This document shows positions 15,762 to 25,072 of a DNA stretch of 25,075 bases, piece after piece. Source of the DNA: a virus; IMG/VR virus record IMGVR_UViG_3300025120_000501, positions 1-25,075 of that record. One strand, given 5' to 3'. The first letter of the stretch is position 1. The number at the start of each line of letters is the position of its first letter. The notes beneath the pieces were generated by a model that worked only from the letters and a program-made list of their open reading frames with translations, was not told the DNA's origin and ran no database searches. Position numbers and translations under genes: made by a program.

Positions 15762-15768
15762 CCTCCTT
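15762..15768 (-). promoter_or_regulatory. Strong ribosome binding site AAGGAGG for the scaffold gene
   Basis: Seven-base Shine-Dalgarno match on the minus strand, 6 bases from ATG 15755; it overlaps the stop of the co-chaperonin gene, linking the two. Confidence 0.75.
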
Positions 15769-16246
15769 ACATGTGTAGAATGTCTTCAGGATCATTTACT
15801 AGCCCTAAAATTTCATCGTCGTTTAACAGACGAATCTCGCCACCATCTATCTGAATCCGAGACCCTGCGTATCGACCAAATATTACCCAGTCGCCTGCTT
15901 TACACCACGGGCCGTAGGGGAATTTAGACTCGTCAGCATAAGATAGGTCACCCACCTTCAACACGTACCCGACATTAGTTGCCAGTTGTGTTCGTTGACG
16001 GGTCTCATCCGCAAGCACAATTCCGCCTTTAGTGGTTTTAGCGCCACGATAAGGCAGGATAGCTAGTCGCCATCCAGTGGGTTGCGGAATAAGGTTTAAA
16101 ACAGAGTCGGAAAGGCCATGTTCGGCAACTTTCCCTTCATCGGTGTACGCATCGTCAAGGGTTAGCTTGGTGCTTTTGGCTGCGTTATCTTCAGCCTCCG
16201 CTTTCCACTTTTCCTCTAGGGGCGTAAGTTTCTTTTCAGATTCCAT
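15767..16246 (-). CDS. GroES-like co-chaperonin
   Basis: 159 residues: an acidic ~50-residue N-terminal extension followed by a Cpn10-type barrel from about residue 55. PTGWRLAILPYRGAKTTKGG leads into the GroEL-binding mobile loop GGIVLADETRQR (74-85), with the IVL tripeptide at 76-78. NVGYVLKVG, WCKAGDWVIFGRYAGSRIQI and LLNDDEILGLVNDPEDI complete the barrel and its C-terminal strand. Phage co-chaperonins such as T4 gp31 replace host GroES to fold the capsid protein, which fits this location in the head operon. AGAGAG precedes ATG 16246. The acidic extension is longer than bacterial GroES, whose usual length is near 97. Confidence 0.9.
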   Translation of the reverse strand: MESEKKLTPLEEKWKAEAEDNAAKSTKLTLDDAYTDEGKVAEHGLSDSVLNLIPQPTGWRLAILPYRGAKTTKGGIVLADETRQRTQLATNVGYVLKVGDLSYADESKFPYGPWCKAGDWVIFGRYAGSRIQIDGGEIRLLNDDEILGLVNDPEDILHM

Positions 16247-19108: not shown

Positions 19109-22100
19109 CTATTTGTATGTTCGGTTGTCATTGTACACGCGCTCTACTGATCCGCCACTTTTGAAATAGTCAGGCTCGCCTTTTTTACGCTTTTTAGGGT
19201 CTAGTGCGTGCTCTGGACTTTCTAGTGGCCTAGTCTTAACGTCTTTGGCAAGAACTAGCGGCCCAATCTGGATTACTTCTTTTGCTGAGCCAACGGGTTG
19301 TCCCGTGGCCTTGTCATAAAAGAACGAATGGCGATAGGGGTTCATTCCTACCTGCGTCCAGTTTGGATCGTTAATAAACTTTTCGGCTTGTTCTTTGGCG
19401 ACTTCAGGATCAACATTACGCCACTTGCCGTTCATTCTAGCAAACGAAGCCTTAGGTTTCTTGCCCGTGGCAACCCCAAAGGCCGATTTAGCGTTACTGT
19501 TGAATTGAACGTCATCAAGGACGGCTATTTTGCCATAGCCTAGTGAACTTCCAGAAACGCCTGCGCCTTCATGCACGGATACTACCCACGTGTTGTAGCT
19601 GTTGTAAGCAGGGATGTCTAATCTTGAACCCACCATAGTGCCGTCGGCAATCTTTGTGTCTAAGCCAATAATGCCTTTAGCCACCTTGTTTGCGTCTAGG
19701 GCAGAAGCAATCTCTTCAAACGAAGCTATTCGGGGGACTTCCGTGAGGGAAGTAATAGGGCGAAGGCGGTCTACTTCTTTCGAGTAGTCCGAAATAGATA
19801 TCTCCCCCCTGCCAAGCTTTTCTGCCGCTTGGGAAAGTTCGGGGGTTTGTTCCTGCTTAAAATCGCCTTTATTAGCTTCACGCCAATCTTTGCGCTGCTG
19901 CTCGGTTACTACTTGATTCCCTTGCTCGAGTTTAGGCTCATCGCTTGCATTCCGGGCAGTGTCATCTTTAGGAGCTTGTCTCTGCGTGCTTTCTGGGCGG
20001 GGCTGAGAGTTGCCTTTGGTGGCGAGGTAGATGGATTCGCTGATTTTTCCTTGTTCATATGCGTCCTCTAATGCTTGGGTGATCTTGGGTAAAGACGTAT
20101 TGTAATCCATTTCACTAATTTTATCCACAGTGGTGAGGAACTGTTTTCCTTCCGCGCCGTGGTTGTTGACTATTTGGATGGCTACCCTGTCGTCGTTTTT
20201 GTATTTGTTTTCGATTTTCTTAATGCTTTCGCGGGCGTCTCTGTGTGCGCCCAAGAAGATATCAAGCGGAACTGTTCGTCCTGAGCCTAGCTCATTTTCC
20301 ATTTTGTTTGCTCGGCCTAGCAACAAAGGCAAAGCTTTTTCCGGCGGACGATCTACATAGATAATGGTTACGGCTTTACCTGAATCCAAAGCTTGGTCTA
20401 TCTGGGCTGAAGATTTTTCAAAGTTAGCTAGGGTTCCGTCTACGACTAGGTCGTAGGAATCTATCATGTCGTCAGGCAGCCCTGCGGTCTTACCGGAGGC
20501 CGCTCCACCGCCCGTGAACACCCATTGGCCATCTTGGCCCATAGTGTCACGAAGTGCTCTTTGGTACATAAGTTGATTTAACGCCGTAGAGGTGTCGTGG
20601 ACATTTTGAGAAAGATTCCTATCATTACGGTAGTCCGGGCTTAGCTCCCTAAAGAAGTCCGTGTTAAGGACCTTTCCACCCTTGGAATCAGGGAGTTGTC
20701 GGTATTGGGCTATGGCAGCCTCGGGGTCGGCCCCTACCTGCTCATTAAACCGTTCCGCCACAGGGTCATTAACGACTCGCGGTAGCTTGGCTATCTTTTC
20801 TGCGTCATAGCCAAGAGCTTGGGGCGCGTTTGTAGGTAAAGAGCCTATGCCTTGGGCTTCTTGTACGACCCCGTCAGGTACATCTGTTGAAAGCTTTGTC
20901 CCGACTTCTTCGCCGCTATTTGATTGCGGATCATTTGCGCCACGGGAGAGTTCTCCCCCCGCTCCGCTATTTCCCTTTTTAACTGTTCTGCTAAGTTGCT
21001 CATCGTAGTCATCCCTAAAATAAACTTCAGTATCATAGTAGGTTATTCTTGCATCAGACACATTTCCGTCACCAACTGTATCATTAATTACACTTCGGAA
21101 CAAGTCTTCTGCCTTATTGTAGCTTTCTGTAGCATTTTGCGGGTCAAAAGCGTCGTCAAACTCAGGCACATACTGGAACCTTAGCCCTGTTAGGCCTGCT
21201 GTTTCAGGGTCTCCTGACCTTGTCTGCCTGTTTATGCGGTCGTTGAATCGCATGTCCGTTACATAGGTAAACCCGTCTACACCTTTTTCTCGAAGCCTTT
21301 CCGTAACCTTAGCCATTTGCTCTGGGGTTATGGTCTCTCTAAAGTATATTTCAACGCCGGGCCTTGCATTCGGCGTGCCATCAGGCACCACACGAGACAT
21401 AAATACCGCGTCTTGGTCATAGGCCTTGCCTTGCTCGATCAGTCGAGTTCTCAACGGCTGCATGTCAAAGTTGTCTCTGACAATAAACTCTGCGTTTAAG
21501 GCCCTTTCCGTGTCGCCCATGAAGGAACCGTAAGTATTGGCTAGGTTATAGGTCAATACCGAGGGGTCGTCTCTTACGACATCGTCAAATTCTGCTGCCA
21601 ATTCGGCTTGTGCGTAGCCGCTCATGGGCTGATTAGGCCTTTCGCCCGCTACACCTAACTGAACCCTAGATAAAGGTGCCGCCAATGACGCTAATTCGTC
21701 CTGAGCTGCGCGTCTTGTTCCCTCAAACGCAGTTCTTGCGTCCATTACACGGAGGTCATACGCAGAATCCGTCTCGTTTTTACGCTGCTTGGGCTGCTTA
21801 AAGCCTGCATTAACCTCACGGCGCAATTCAGCTACACGTTCAGGCGACTGAGAACCGGCAAGCGACATCTCATACTCTAGCGAGCCGCCTTCACCGCTCT
21901 TAGTAGTCCACCCGTTCTTGGCCCAACGCTCTTTTTCCATGAACCATGCGATAGCTTGCAGGTCATCTGGACCCAAAGCGCCAAGGTCAGGGTTTACGCG
22001 CTGAACAGAACCGGATTGGTTTACGCGGTTTGCCGCATCACGGAAAACTTCCTGCCCAAATCCAAATTCTCCACCCACTTTAGGCTCGAACAGGGTAGAA

Positions 22101-25072
22101 CCTACTCGGTGCGTCCCTGTTACGCCCTGTTCTGCGGCAGGGGGAATGCGATCTTGACCTGATAGCCTGCGGAGCATACGCGCTGCCCACACATCAACAG
22201 TGGCCTCATTGGTCAAACCGATCAAATTACCCGTAAAGTTAGGTGTTTTAGGTGCTGCACCTGCTTTCACTGTGCGGAACATGTCTAGCAACGCGCCCAT
22301 TGAAGACGGGCTGTTGGTATTAAATAATGCGCCTGAATCTTTAGTGATTAACGGGAACTCGCCTGCTTTGTGCATAGCAGTTAGCGTTTTACCGTCTACC
22401 CGCTCTCCGGCATCAACACGCTTCTGGTACGCAGCAAGCTCCGCGTCATAGTCACCACGGCTGTACTTGCGGAGTATTTCCACTGCGTTATTAAAGTTCT
22501 GTTCGACGTTAGTCTGAGCGCTTGTTGTGCCAAGAATGTCAGCGAAAACATCTCCTAGTCCGCCAAATTCCGAACGTAACTGGTCCCGCATGCCACGATA
22601 CCAGTTAGCCTGAGCCAGAATGTCTAGAGCCGCTTGATCTCCGGCCTCGGCACGCTGAACAATAGTTTCTACTTCGTTAACAATTCCATCAGATAGCTGT
22701 TGTTGCCACTGTTGTGGCTCCATTCCTTCCGGTGGATTTTGGAAACCGTAAGGAATCTTCTTGGTTTTTATTTTGGCCGTGTTGCCTTTAAACTCCGCGC
22801 CCAATATCGTAACCGGCGCCCATCCTTGATCCGGCCCATAGTTGGTTTTAAACGCTTCCCCCACGGACCTAGCAAGTTCCCTTTTTTTAGGGTTGCGCCC
22901 TGCGCTTTTATTTAGCGCAGCTTTTTCTGTCTTGTCTAAGTTCTCAAGTGGAAGAGGGATAGCGTCCACGTCGTCCAACATCTTACCTGATTCGCTTTGA
23001 TCCGAGATTCCTAAAACCGTGCCCTCCGGCTCGCCCTCTGGGAGAGGTCCGTCGTCAATAGGAGGCTCGTCGCCCGTTATTCGACGCACATTACGAGCAT
23101 CTAACGAATCCATAATGCCTCTAGCGGACATGTCGCCAGATACCGCCCCCGCAAGCTGCGCGGCCATAGAATCAGGGAACTGTGTGGCAGCTACCTGCGC
23201 GCCGCCTTCTCCGGCAAGGTACGCCATTGCCTCTCTGTATGCTGCGGGACCCGCCGCAAGAGCTTTCTGTAGTCTTGCAAAAGGGAGTATTTGAGTAGCC
23301 ATGTAGGCGGGGTTTAACGGGCTTACGTCATCCGCGCCAACGCTTGCCTTTATGTTTTCACCAACAGGAACAAACGGCTTAGTCTCAATGCCCATTTTGT
23401 TTGCGACGGCCTTTGTACCCATCTGGGCTAAGTCACCAAGGCCAACAGTCATGTCCGTAGCGGCTGCAACAACGGGCTGCGTAACCTGAGACATTGCACG
23501 ATTAAGATTGTCGAGCATGCTTTGGCTTTCAGTCTGCACTTGATCCGTGGGCCGTGGTTCTTGAACAGGGGCCGGAGCCTCTTCAGTATCCATCGCCATT
23601 AACTGAGCAGTAAGCTCGTCAGCCGTCATCGAGTCCGCAGGACCACCGTCCGCGAACCCTTCAGGCTTTTTTACAAGGCCGCCCTCCGCGAATATCAGCG
23701 CCCCACCTGCCGGTCCGAGGTCCCTAGCGAGTAGCTCATTGTCGTAGCCTCGAGTAGTGAAGTTAGACTGGCGGCTCTCCTCGTCGCCCTCGCCAAACCG
23801 AGCTATCGGCGGCATGCCCGGCGGCAATGTTTTACCAGTACCTTGCGCTAACGTAAACGGCGTTCGCGTGCCTGCCGCTATCTCAGAACGACCGTAGGTG
23901 TTGTAGTGGTTAAGCGCAAAACCTTCTGGAGTAGTGCCTGCAGGAAGCTCTCCTGCCGCCTTAGCGCGAGCGTAGTCCACCCCGACATCCGGGTTTAATC
24001 GAAGATAGTCAGAAATAGTTCCCGTGCTTTCCTCTTGTTTGGCTCTTGCTCGCTGTGAGTCCTGCTGACGGGTCAACGCATAGAGCTGCGAGCGAGACAG
24101 TCCGCCGCCGTAGCTTCCAGTGTTATTCAGAAGGCCGCTGTATCGGTCGTATCTTTCTTGGTCGCCGCCGGTTAATTGACGAAGGTCCTGTGCCGAGCGG
24201 CCTTGGGTATAACGATTAAGCGTATTGGTATCCATCAGAGACCGAGGTCGGCTCGTGACAGAAGGAGGAGTAAAGCTGAAGCCTGATCCGGTGGCCGAGA
24301 GCAACTTAGCAGCAGGCGTGTAGTCAAAACCCGTTAGCTGCTGTGTGCCCATCACATCTTCGGTGACCTCGGTCCGTGGGGCGCTGTCCCTGAACTCACG
24401 GTCGAGTGCTTCCTCGCCCGGCGCATAAATATCAGGCTGAGGTGCAATCGGCTGATAGACCGTAGGGGCGACGTACTCGGGCTGCGTGTTCACAAACCTA
24501 TCCACGGAATCCTGTACTTGTTTTTCCTTCGCTATTTCTTCAGGTGTCTTTGTCACGTTGAACAGGATGCTTGGGTCCACGCCCGCCGCTGCAAAGTCTT
24601 GGAATGTAAAACCTCCCTCAGTAGCAAGGGTCTGCGCTTCACGTCGCTCAGCCTCGTCTATTACGCCGTCGGCCATAAGCCCTGTGACGTAATCCTGTGC
24701 CTGAGTGTAGAAAGGCTGCAGGTCCTGCCCCGCGTAAGGAGCCGCTGCAAATCCAGAGGTTACAGTAGACGGAGTAGAGAAAGTTTCAGGGAGTGGCGCG
24801 CCAGAGGTAAAGATCGCGTCGATAGTGGACTGCTGCACGCCTGCGGCTAGTGCGTCCTCTACAGTAACGCCGCTTTCAAGAATTGCGTTATAAGCAGTGG
24901 CCACGTCCCATGTGTCAGGACTCGCGGCTATCTCGCCAAGGATACGTTGTTCCGCTGCCAAAAGGTCGGCTGCCGTAGCACCCTTGCCATAAACAGGCTC
25001 ACCTGACGGGGTGTGTACTGGGCCTCCGTGGGCCATTCTAAGGAGCATGTCTCTAGCAGAATAATTAGGCAT
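19109..25072 (-). CDS. Giant polyvalent virion protein with zeta-toxin-like P-loop domain
   Basis: 1987 residues, open from ATG 25072 (only three bases upstream are visible, so the true start may lie outside). In order: N-terminal low-complexity part with a YLRLNPDVG...HYNTYGRSE segment near 355-400; a FAEGGLVKKPEGFADGG motif near 461-478; a middle domain (~680-1000) with NSPSSMGALLDMFRTVKAG and ATVDVWAARMLRRLSG, typical of phage polyvalent proteins; a domain near 1100-1340; a linker (1357-1410) with an embedded ORF; a zeta-toxin-like kinase at ~1500-1640 with Walker A GGGAASGKT (K1528) and DGTLANF; and a C-terminal domain from ~1775. Such proteins are probably ejected with DNA to act against host defences; that role is inferred. 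Confidence 0.82.
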   Translation of the reverse strand: MPNYSARDMLLRMAHGGPVHTPSGEPVYGKGATAADLLAAEQRILGEIAASPDTWDVATAYNAILESGVTVEDALAAGVQQSTIDAIFTSGAPLPETFSTPSTVTSGFAAAPYAGQDLQPFYTQAQDYVTGLMADGVIDEAERREAQTLATEGGFTFQDFAAAGVDPSILFNVTKTPEEIAKEKQVQDSVDRFVNTQPEYVAPTVYQPIAPQPDIYAPGEEALDREFRDSAPRTEVTEDVMGTQQLTGFDYTPAAKLLSATGSGFSFTPPSVTSRPRSLMDTNTLNRYTQGRSAQDLRQLTGGDQERYDRYSGLLNNTGSYGGGLSRSQLYALTRQQDSQRARAKQEESTGTISDYLRLNPDVGVDYARAKAAGELPAGTTPEGFALNHYNTYGRSEIAAGTRTPFTLAQGTGKTLPPGMPPIARFGEGDEESRQSNFTTRGYDNELLARDLGPAGGALIFAEGGLVKKPEGFADGGPADSMTADELTAQLMAMDTEEAPAPVQEPRPTDQVQTESQSMLDNLNRAMSQVTQPVVAAATDMTVGLGDLAQMGTKAVANKMGIETKPFVPVGENIKASVGADDVSPLNPAYMATQILPFARLQKALAAGPAAYREAMAYLAGEGGAQVAATQFPDSMAAQLAGAVSGDMSARGIMDSLDARNVRRITGDEPPIDDGPLPEGEPEGTVLGISDQSESGKMLDDVDAIPLPLENLDKTEKAALNKSAGRNPKKRELARSVGEAFKTNYGPDQGWAPVTILGAEFKGNTAKIKTKKIPYGFQNPPEGMEPQQWQQQLSDGIVNEVETIVQRAEAGDQAALDILAQANWYRGMRDQLRSEFGGLGDVFADILGTTSAQTNVEQNFNNAVEILRKYSRGDYDAELAAYQKRVDAGERVDGKTLTAMHKAGEFPLITKDSGALFNTNSPSSMGALLDMFRTVKAGAAPKTPNFTGNLIGLTNEATVDVWAARMLRRLSGQDRIPPAAEQGVTGTHRVGSTLFEPKVGGEFGFGQEVFRDAANRVNQSGSVQRVNPDLGALGPDDLQAIAWFMEKERWAKNGWTTKSGEGGSLEYEMSLAGSQSPERVAELRREVNAGFKQPKQRKNETDSAYDLRVMDARTAFEGTRRAAQDELASLAAPLSRVQLGVAGERPNQPMSGYAQAELAAEFDDVVRDDPSVLTYNLANTYGSFMGDTERALNAEFIVRDNFDMQPLRTRLIEQGKAYDQDAVFMSRVVPDGTPNARPGVEIYFRETITPEQMAKVTERLREKGVDGFTYVTDMRFNDRINRQTRSGDPETAGLTGLRFQYVPEFDDAFDPQNATESYNKAEDLFRSVINDTVGDGNVSDARITYYDTEVYFRDDYDEQLSRTVKKGNSGAGGELSRGANDPQSNSGEEVGTKLSTDVPDGVVQEAQGIGSLPTNAPQALGYDAEKIAKLPRVVNDPVAERFNEQVGADPEAAIAQYRQLPDSKGGKVLNTDFFRELSPDYRNDRNLSQNVHDTSTALNQLMYQRALRDTMGQDGQWVFTGGGAASGKTAGLPDDMIDSYDLVVDGTLANFEKSSAQIDQALDSGKAVTIIYVDRPPEKALPLLLGRANKMENELGSGRTVPLDIFLGAHRDARESIKKIENKYKNDDRVAIQIVNNHGAEGKQFLTTVDKISEMDYNTSLPKITQALEDAYEQGKISESIYLATKGNSQPRPESTQRQAPKDDTARNASDEPKLEQGNQVVTEQQRKDWREANKGDFKQEQTPELSQAAEKLGRGEISISDYSKEVDRLRPITSLTEVPRIASFEEIASALDANKVAKGIIGLDTKIADGTMVGSRLDIPAYNSYNTWVVSVHEGAGVSGSSLGYGKIAVLDDVQFNSNAKSAFGVATGKKPKASFARMNGKWRNVDPEVAKEQAEKFINDPNWTQVGMNPYRHSFFYDKATGQPVGSAKEVIQIGPLVLAKDVKTRPLESPEHALDPKKRKKGEPDYFKSGGSVERVYNDNRTYK
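20845..21003 (-). CDS. Possible overprinted small gene inside the giant ORF
   Basis: 52 residues in another frame of the giant gene, on the same strand. The sequence starts MSNLAEQLKREIAERGENSP, then VAQMIRNQIAAKKSGQ and MYLTGSYKK. It looks like a genuine helical protein rather than random: charged heptads, and SPxAQxxRNQIAA...MYLTG resembles small phage proteins I have seen. AGGGA (21012-21016) lies 8 bases before the ATG. The giant frame over the same bases (residues 1357-1410) is a low-complexity Gly/Ser/Asp/Asn linker, consistent with it tolerating constraint from the second frame. Not proven to be expressed. Confidence 0.5.
   Translation of the reverse strand: MSNLAEQLKREIAERGENSPVAQMIRNQIAAKKSGQSFQQMYLTGSYKKPKA

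Follow-up and report, generated by a model that had tools for sequence, protein, structure and literature searches.

Is a 52-codon open reading frame (ORF) that lies wholly inside a giant phage gene a gene in its own right and, if so, which of the two reading frames was written over the other? The window analysed here (the whole stretch of 25,075 nt) is a portion of a phage genome with its genes on the − strand, in the order giant ORF, portal, and GroES and capsid genes. Because the giant frame is open up to the contig end, its true start may lie outside the contig. We class its product as a polyvalent protein on the basis of a PF06414 match in the window, ART-PolyVal (PF18760) in the related locus L123, PcfJ in L111 and the adjoining portal gene. 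Gene callers such as Prodigal limit same-strand overlap and would miss a nested small gene, and the arrangement described below is likely to be missed by ordinary gene finders. A first-pass annotation, made from the letters alone, had proposed that the small gene is overprinted inside the giant gene, and that two genes flanking it may have been fused by reading through it in another frame. The features that bear on these proposals are:

19109–25072, − strand: giant polyvalent ORF, 1,987 aa counted from the first ATG
21002–21715, − strand: conserved globular domain of the giant protein, with a double ferredoxin-like prediction, ending where the small ORF starts
21012–21016, − strand: AGGGA ribosome-binding-like site, read from the sequence, 8 nt 5' of the small ORF ATG
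20845–21003, − strand: small gene, 52 aa (MSNLAEQL...KKPKA), wholly nested in the giant ORF and read in the +1 frame with respect to it
20159–20458, − strand: zeta-toxin-like kinase (PF06414), the first cargo 3' of the small gene, in the giant frame
19112–19942, − strand: second cargo module in the giant frame, with a weak L5 gp82-like match, common to relatives at 45–92% identity
19112–19156, − strand: C-terminal tail GGSVERVYNDNRTYK of the giant protein, found unchanged in the cargo-free relatives L008 and L017
16745–19099, − strand: portal protein gene (phrog_1216, E 7.6e-35), 3' of the pair in the window's clade

Two further ORFs were seen in passing. The GroES-like co-chaperonin gene lies within the structural module (15767–16246, −) and is also present in phage DSL-LC04 and in Pelagibacter phages HTVC023P and HTVC027P. 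An antisense ORF of 91 aa (23019–23294, +) lies within the giant gene and is open in eight of nine mapped relatives.

Results

A conserved small gene and its constant neighbour

The small ORF runs from an ATG at 21003 to a stop codon at 20845–20847 and spans residues 1357–1410 of the giant protein; its position, its 52 residues and the AGGGA word at a suitable distance from its ATG, all as first annotated, were borne out by a sequence check. Two additional in-frame ATGs lie 5' of its start, at 21012 and 21036. Length by itself is no evidence for a gene, because 21 ORFs of 45 aa or more occupy alternative frames within the giant ORF; we accept the small ORF as real because it is conserved. Among 70 unique sequences the ribosome-site words were AGGAG (30), AGGG (26), AGGA (3), GAGG (2), AAGG (1) and GAG (8). 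The small ATG is formed by a giant-frame Asp codon that reads GAT in 69 of the 70, compared with 59% of upstream Asp codons, and the sole non-GAT case (L034) has an in-frame ATG one codon further upstream.

A first scan with the small ORF as query returned 10 viral contigs at 62–88% identity, and a profile scan returned 79 loci. The search of the 52-residue protein against phage proteins that had been suggested at first pass therefore had a divided outcome: homologues exist in viral contigs, and searches of phage records with the window's 52 aa, a typed 57-aa sequence and the L083 version gave no match. Because no annotated phage record holds the small ORF, no cultivated relative supports the gene. 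It was counted open in 11 of 12 mapped relatives; the one stop counted, in L069, was set aside, since the small ORF there is intact and the stop can be put down to the mapping or to the use of a longer, 63-codon version.

As a guard against circularity, loci were also sought with the upstream domain of the giant protein alone. These searches found the small ORF in 90 of 91 non-redundant loci and absent in none, the remaining locus (L215) ending at that point; the opposite end of the L215 contig carries a small ORF plus the end of a domain (L259). The small ORF was present in 14 of 15 new domain-found loci (L126 is cut by the contig end) and in 37 of 38 of a further set (L215 is cut). Conversely, with an outgroup small-ORF profile, the upstream domain adjoined the small ORF in 49 of 49 checked loci, which were drawn from the best 80 of 98 loci, the other 31 being on contigs taken as already examined and left out; 20 of the 49 lie on contigs new to all scans, and the rest had been met in the upstream-domain scan. 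The small gene and the upstream gene are thus adjacent in every locus that could be examined. This conservation marks the small ORF as a true gene kept across these phages.

A graded overlap

The position of the upstream stop codon forms a graded series. In L250 it precedes the small gene by 7 nt; in L083 and L170 it falls on the small gene's ATG (a 4-nt ATGA overlap, with the upstream gene in the other frame there). In many loci it is 26–152 nt into the small gene, in L188, L174 and the set adjoining internal virion genes (phrog_6651) 20–38 nt beyond it, and in most of the portal-linked set 68–3,827 nt beyond it. L250, L083 and L170 show that the small ORF is a gene outside the giant frame as well. 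With same-strand neighbours in different frames and a non-overlapping relative (L250), the pair has the arrangement expected of an overlap by stop-codon loss. A 97-sequence tree rooted with L083/L170 places the portal-linked clade (support 0.999) inside the full-overlap group; the direction of change rests on that rooting, whose branch is long (0.82) and which is the weak point, and on homology. We infer a progressive C-terminal extension of the upstream gene, with occasional retreat of the stop (L012, L026).

Selection in the two frames

Across the full overlap the small frame is under purifying selection, with a dNN/dSN of 0.16 (0.09–0.25, bootstrap over codons), and the giant frame has a dNN/dNS of 2.65 (1.61–5.06), both ratios coming from 718 pairs of 68 unique fully overlapped sequences with few sites in the SS class. 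The pairwise test dropped L012, L013, L026 and L027, which have a giant-frame stop inside the small ORF, and excluded L063, L066, L087, L062 and L083 as cut or gapped. The portal-linked set alone, which holds the window (23 sequences), gave 0.27 (0.13–0.50) for the small frame and 3.11 for the giant frame; the other set (45 sequences) gave 0.13 and 2.40. The giant-frame value of 2.65 means that no amino-acid constraint is visible in that frame across the overlap, and its excess over 1 is not read as positive selection, because the site numbers of the classes are unequal and the region is bound to the small frame. When the window is compared with L014 across the overlap, the small proteins share 88% identity and the giant proteins 69%. 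The first-pass annotation had named codon variation preserving only the giant frame as the outcome that would speak against a small gene; the relatives show the reverse, their variation preserving the small frame and not the giant one.

The sliding upstream stop, taken with selection on the small frame, indicates that it was the giant frame that came to overprint the small gene, through C-terminal extension, and not the other way round. On these comparisons the small gene came first and the giant frame was written over it, which goes against the direction proposed at first pass. A small ORF newly born inside the giant gene would explain why it lies wholly within the larger frame in the window and in most first-scan relatives, but the constrained frame is the small one, and the expectation that such a gene has no homologue outside the overlap fails at the three stand-alone loci (L250, L083, L170), which refute new birth unless all three lost an ancestral overlap; we regard it as very improbable. 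We give equally little credence to a programmed ribosomal frameshift that would make the small frame an alternative C-terminus of the giant protein. Adjacent frames and a globular domain whose end is close to the small ORF start are what it would predict, but the small ORF has its own start codon and a ribosome-site-like word, both conserved, and the relative frame is not fixed, being the other one in L083 and L170, with the upstream gene of L250 ending 7 nt short. Still less plausible, to the point of near-exclusion, is a chance ORF whose conservation reflects only the giant protein or an RNA element: ORFs this long are indeed common in the giant gene, yet amino-acid selection acts on the small frame and was not seen on the giant one, homologues exist outside any overlap, and the insertions found, for example, in L156 and L083 are codon-sized and keep the small frame.

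The giant frame appears to be kept open

In the overlap the giant frame seems to avoid stop codons, and so to be kept open, while its residues are free to change. On a 70-sequence tree with 467 synonymous steps in the small frame, ~34 stops in the giant frame would be expected from those steps; seven stop-creating steps, five of them synonymous, were reconstructed by parsimony, and only two of the 70 tips carry a stop (L012, L026). T-ending codons account for 8.7% of small-ORF codons in overlapped stretches (289/3,332) and for 25% in non-overlapped tails (215/855). The count of T-ending codons before stop-prone codons, 0 of 934, is zero by construction, only sequences with an open giant frame having been counted, and the tree is the fairer test because it takes in L012 and L026. 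Of 51 rows in the non-portal set, 48 have a giant stop that shares 1 or 4 nt with the start of the following gene; in the other three the remaining contig is too short to judge. The small gene's own codon usage gives a mean P of 0.55 of an open giant frame per single sequence, so the case for a maintained frame rests on the family: the tree count, the composition contrast and the stop–start coupling.

Predicted structures and a candidate role

AlphaFold2 models of the giant protein have pLDDT mostly >90 up to about the small ORF start and <40 across the overlap, in line with the change in character that had been noticed in the letters at this point, and the low values predict a disordered linker. 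For the upstream domain, the best fold-search hit had E 3e-4 with a TM-score of 0.16 (double-ferredoxin-like, weak or middling). The domain also matches AcrB-type pumps (Z up to 10.2) and the phage SAM lyase 6zm9 (Z 7.3, middling), matches that we took as a shared arrangement only, reading no function from them. The small protein is predicted to form three helices (mean pLDDT 74). It found no credible family in PHROGs or Pfam (best E 0.12 and 0.084), only helical look-alikes in a PDB profile search (best E 0.0074, a designed repeat protein) and nothing better than E 2.6 in a viral structure library. Because the pair stays together both beside internal virion protein genes and beside portal genes, its genomic setting suggests that the small protein is a dedicated partner (an assembly or packaging factor, a chaperone or an inhibitor) of a polyvalent, probably packaged protein.

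Exchangeable cargo behind the small gene

In 31 portal-linked loci that were compared, exchangeable cargo makes a mosaic of the giant frame 3' of the small ORF. The kinase match of the window lies above the curated cut-off (PF06414, E 1.4e-12 and 1.3e-14), and the module after the kinase is 92% identical to that of L003, which has the same arrangement without the kinase. Cargo in other relatives includes ART-PolyVal, PcfJ and weak ASCH or L5 gp82-like matches, the last two below the curated cut-off. The last residues of the small protein vary with the cargo, which puts the joint at the 3' end of the small gene. Among side observations, a pretoxin HINT domain (PT-HINT, PF07591, E 1.7e-6) occurs in the N-terminal half of L036:3-3602, a giant ORF related to the window's, and short [FY]-x-x-GG-x-V motifs (for example FAEGGLV and YFKSGGSV) recur in the giant frame, including in 19112–19156, and also lie close to module joints in relatives; they are possibly processing or joint signals.

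A fusion, in which the upstream gene read through the small gene into a downstream gene, was one explanation offered at first pass. It draws on the downstream part of the window's giant protein having modules of its own and on its last ~250 residues matching parts of multi-domain genes elsewhere in other phages. Against this, the modules were seen only in the giant frame: among the loci returned by the scans, neither the 31 portal-linked ones nor those with early stops include a case in which the downstream module is an independent gene separating the small ORF from the gene after it, and in the early-stop relatives L012, L013, L026 and L027 the portal follows directly with nothing between. 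In the cargo-free relatives L008, L017 and L030 the giant frame stops 68 nt past the small ORF and ends in GGSVERVYNDNRTYK or a one-residue variant. Since cargo-free relatives share the window's own tail, and L003 is the window's arrangement minus the kinase, C-terminal extension followed by cargo insertion fits the sequences better than fusion of two flanking genes, which we consider improbable. The cargo-free loci may themselves have arisen by cargo loss.

Discussion

The account that we favour, and hold to be very probable as a whole, starts from an old two-gene unit of uncultivated phages, in which a multi-domain polyvalent-type gene would have been followed directly by the gene of a small three-helix protein (~50–65 residues). 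Repeated loss or movement of the upstream stop codon would have led to read-through of the small neighbour in another frame, presumably with the read-through stretch as a disordered linker. Exchangeable effector domains would later have entered the portal-linked clade as DNA inserted between the last codons of the small gene and the conserved tail peptide. The small protein is predicted to be translated separately, with its own ATG and ribosome site within the coding region of the giant gene, and most likely acts as the partner.

More tentatively, and a little short of what we would call probable, the nested gene may be the fixed hinge of a cargo-loading site, with a constant core and an essential small partner and with effectors exchanged just behind them. 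If this holds, the recombination joint would lie in the dispensable last codons of the small gene, and new effectors could join a packaged protein while the partner gene stays unbroken. The locus also brings to light a conserved family of phage genes, concealed next to exchangeable effector cargo, and a natural series, inside a single family, that leads from genes lying apart to one gene engulfed completely by its neighbour. Through that series the origin of an overlap, the maintenance of a second frame and the role of overprinted residues become testable.

Searches of the literature on overlapping or overprinted phage genes and on polyvalent proteins, judged by title and opening abstract, did not find this pair. 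Phage DSL-LC04, of the proposed family Dishuiviridae (PMC10611076), has a portal 69.8% identical to the window's and shares the order of portal, GroES and capsid genes; it differs in having a PcfJ-like gene between the large terminase subunit and portal genes, and a small-ORF match was not found in the phage collection. A link to T7-type internal virion (ejection) proteins lies in the place of the non-portal pair, directly upstream of a phrog_6651 internal virion protein match, but no match to such a family came from the small protein or from the polyvalent protein itself.

Gene overlap by stop-codon loss between neighbours in different frames is a described route (class a in PMC2268670). As in that class, the 3' end of the upstream gene extends into the next gene and relatives show both separate and overlapping states. 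Unlike the class as outlined there, the entire neighbour is covered here, with up to 3.8 kb beyond it and effector cargo on the far side, and overlap length changes by degrees among members of a single family. Also described are the polyvalent proteins of phages and conjugative elements, with packaging and injection inferred by the authors (PMC5512222). The giant protein resembles them in being multi-domain, in lying beside portal or terminase genes and in carrying a zeta-toxin-like kinase, ART and similar effector domains; it differs in its nested constant partner gene with a cargo site, and the available text of that source contains neither 'overlap' nor 'small ORF'. As far as these excerpts extend, overlap by stop loss and polyvalent proteins are known, and what is new is a nested, constant partner gene with exchangeable cargo behind it.
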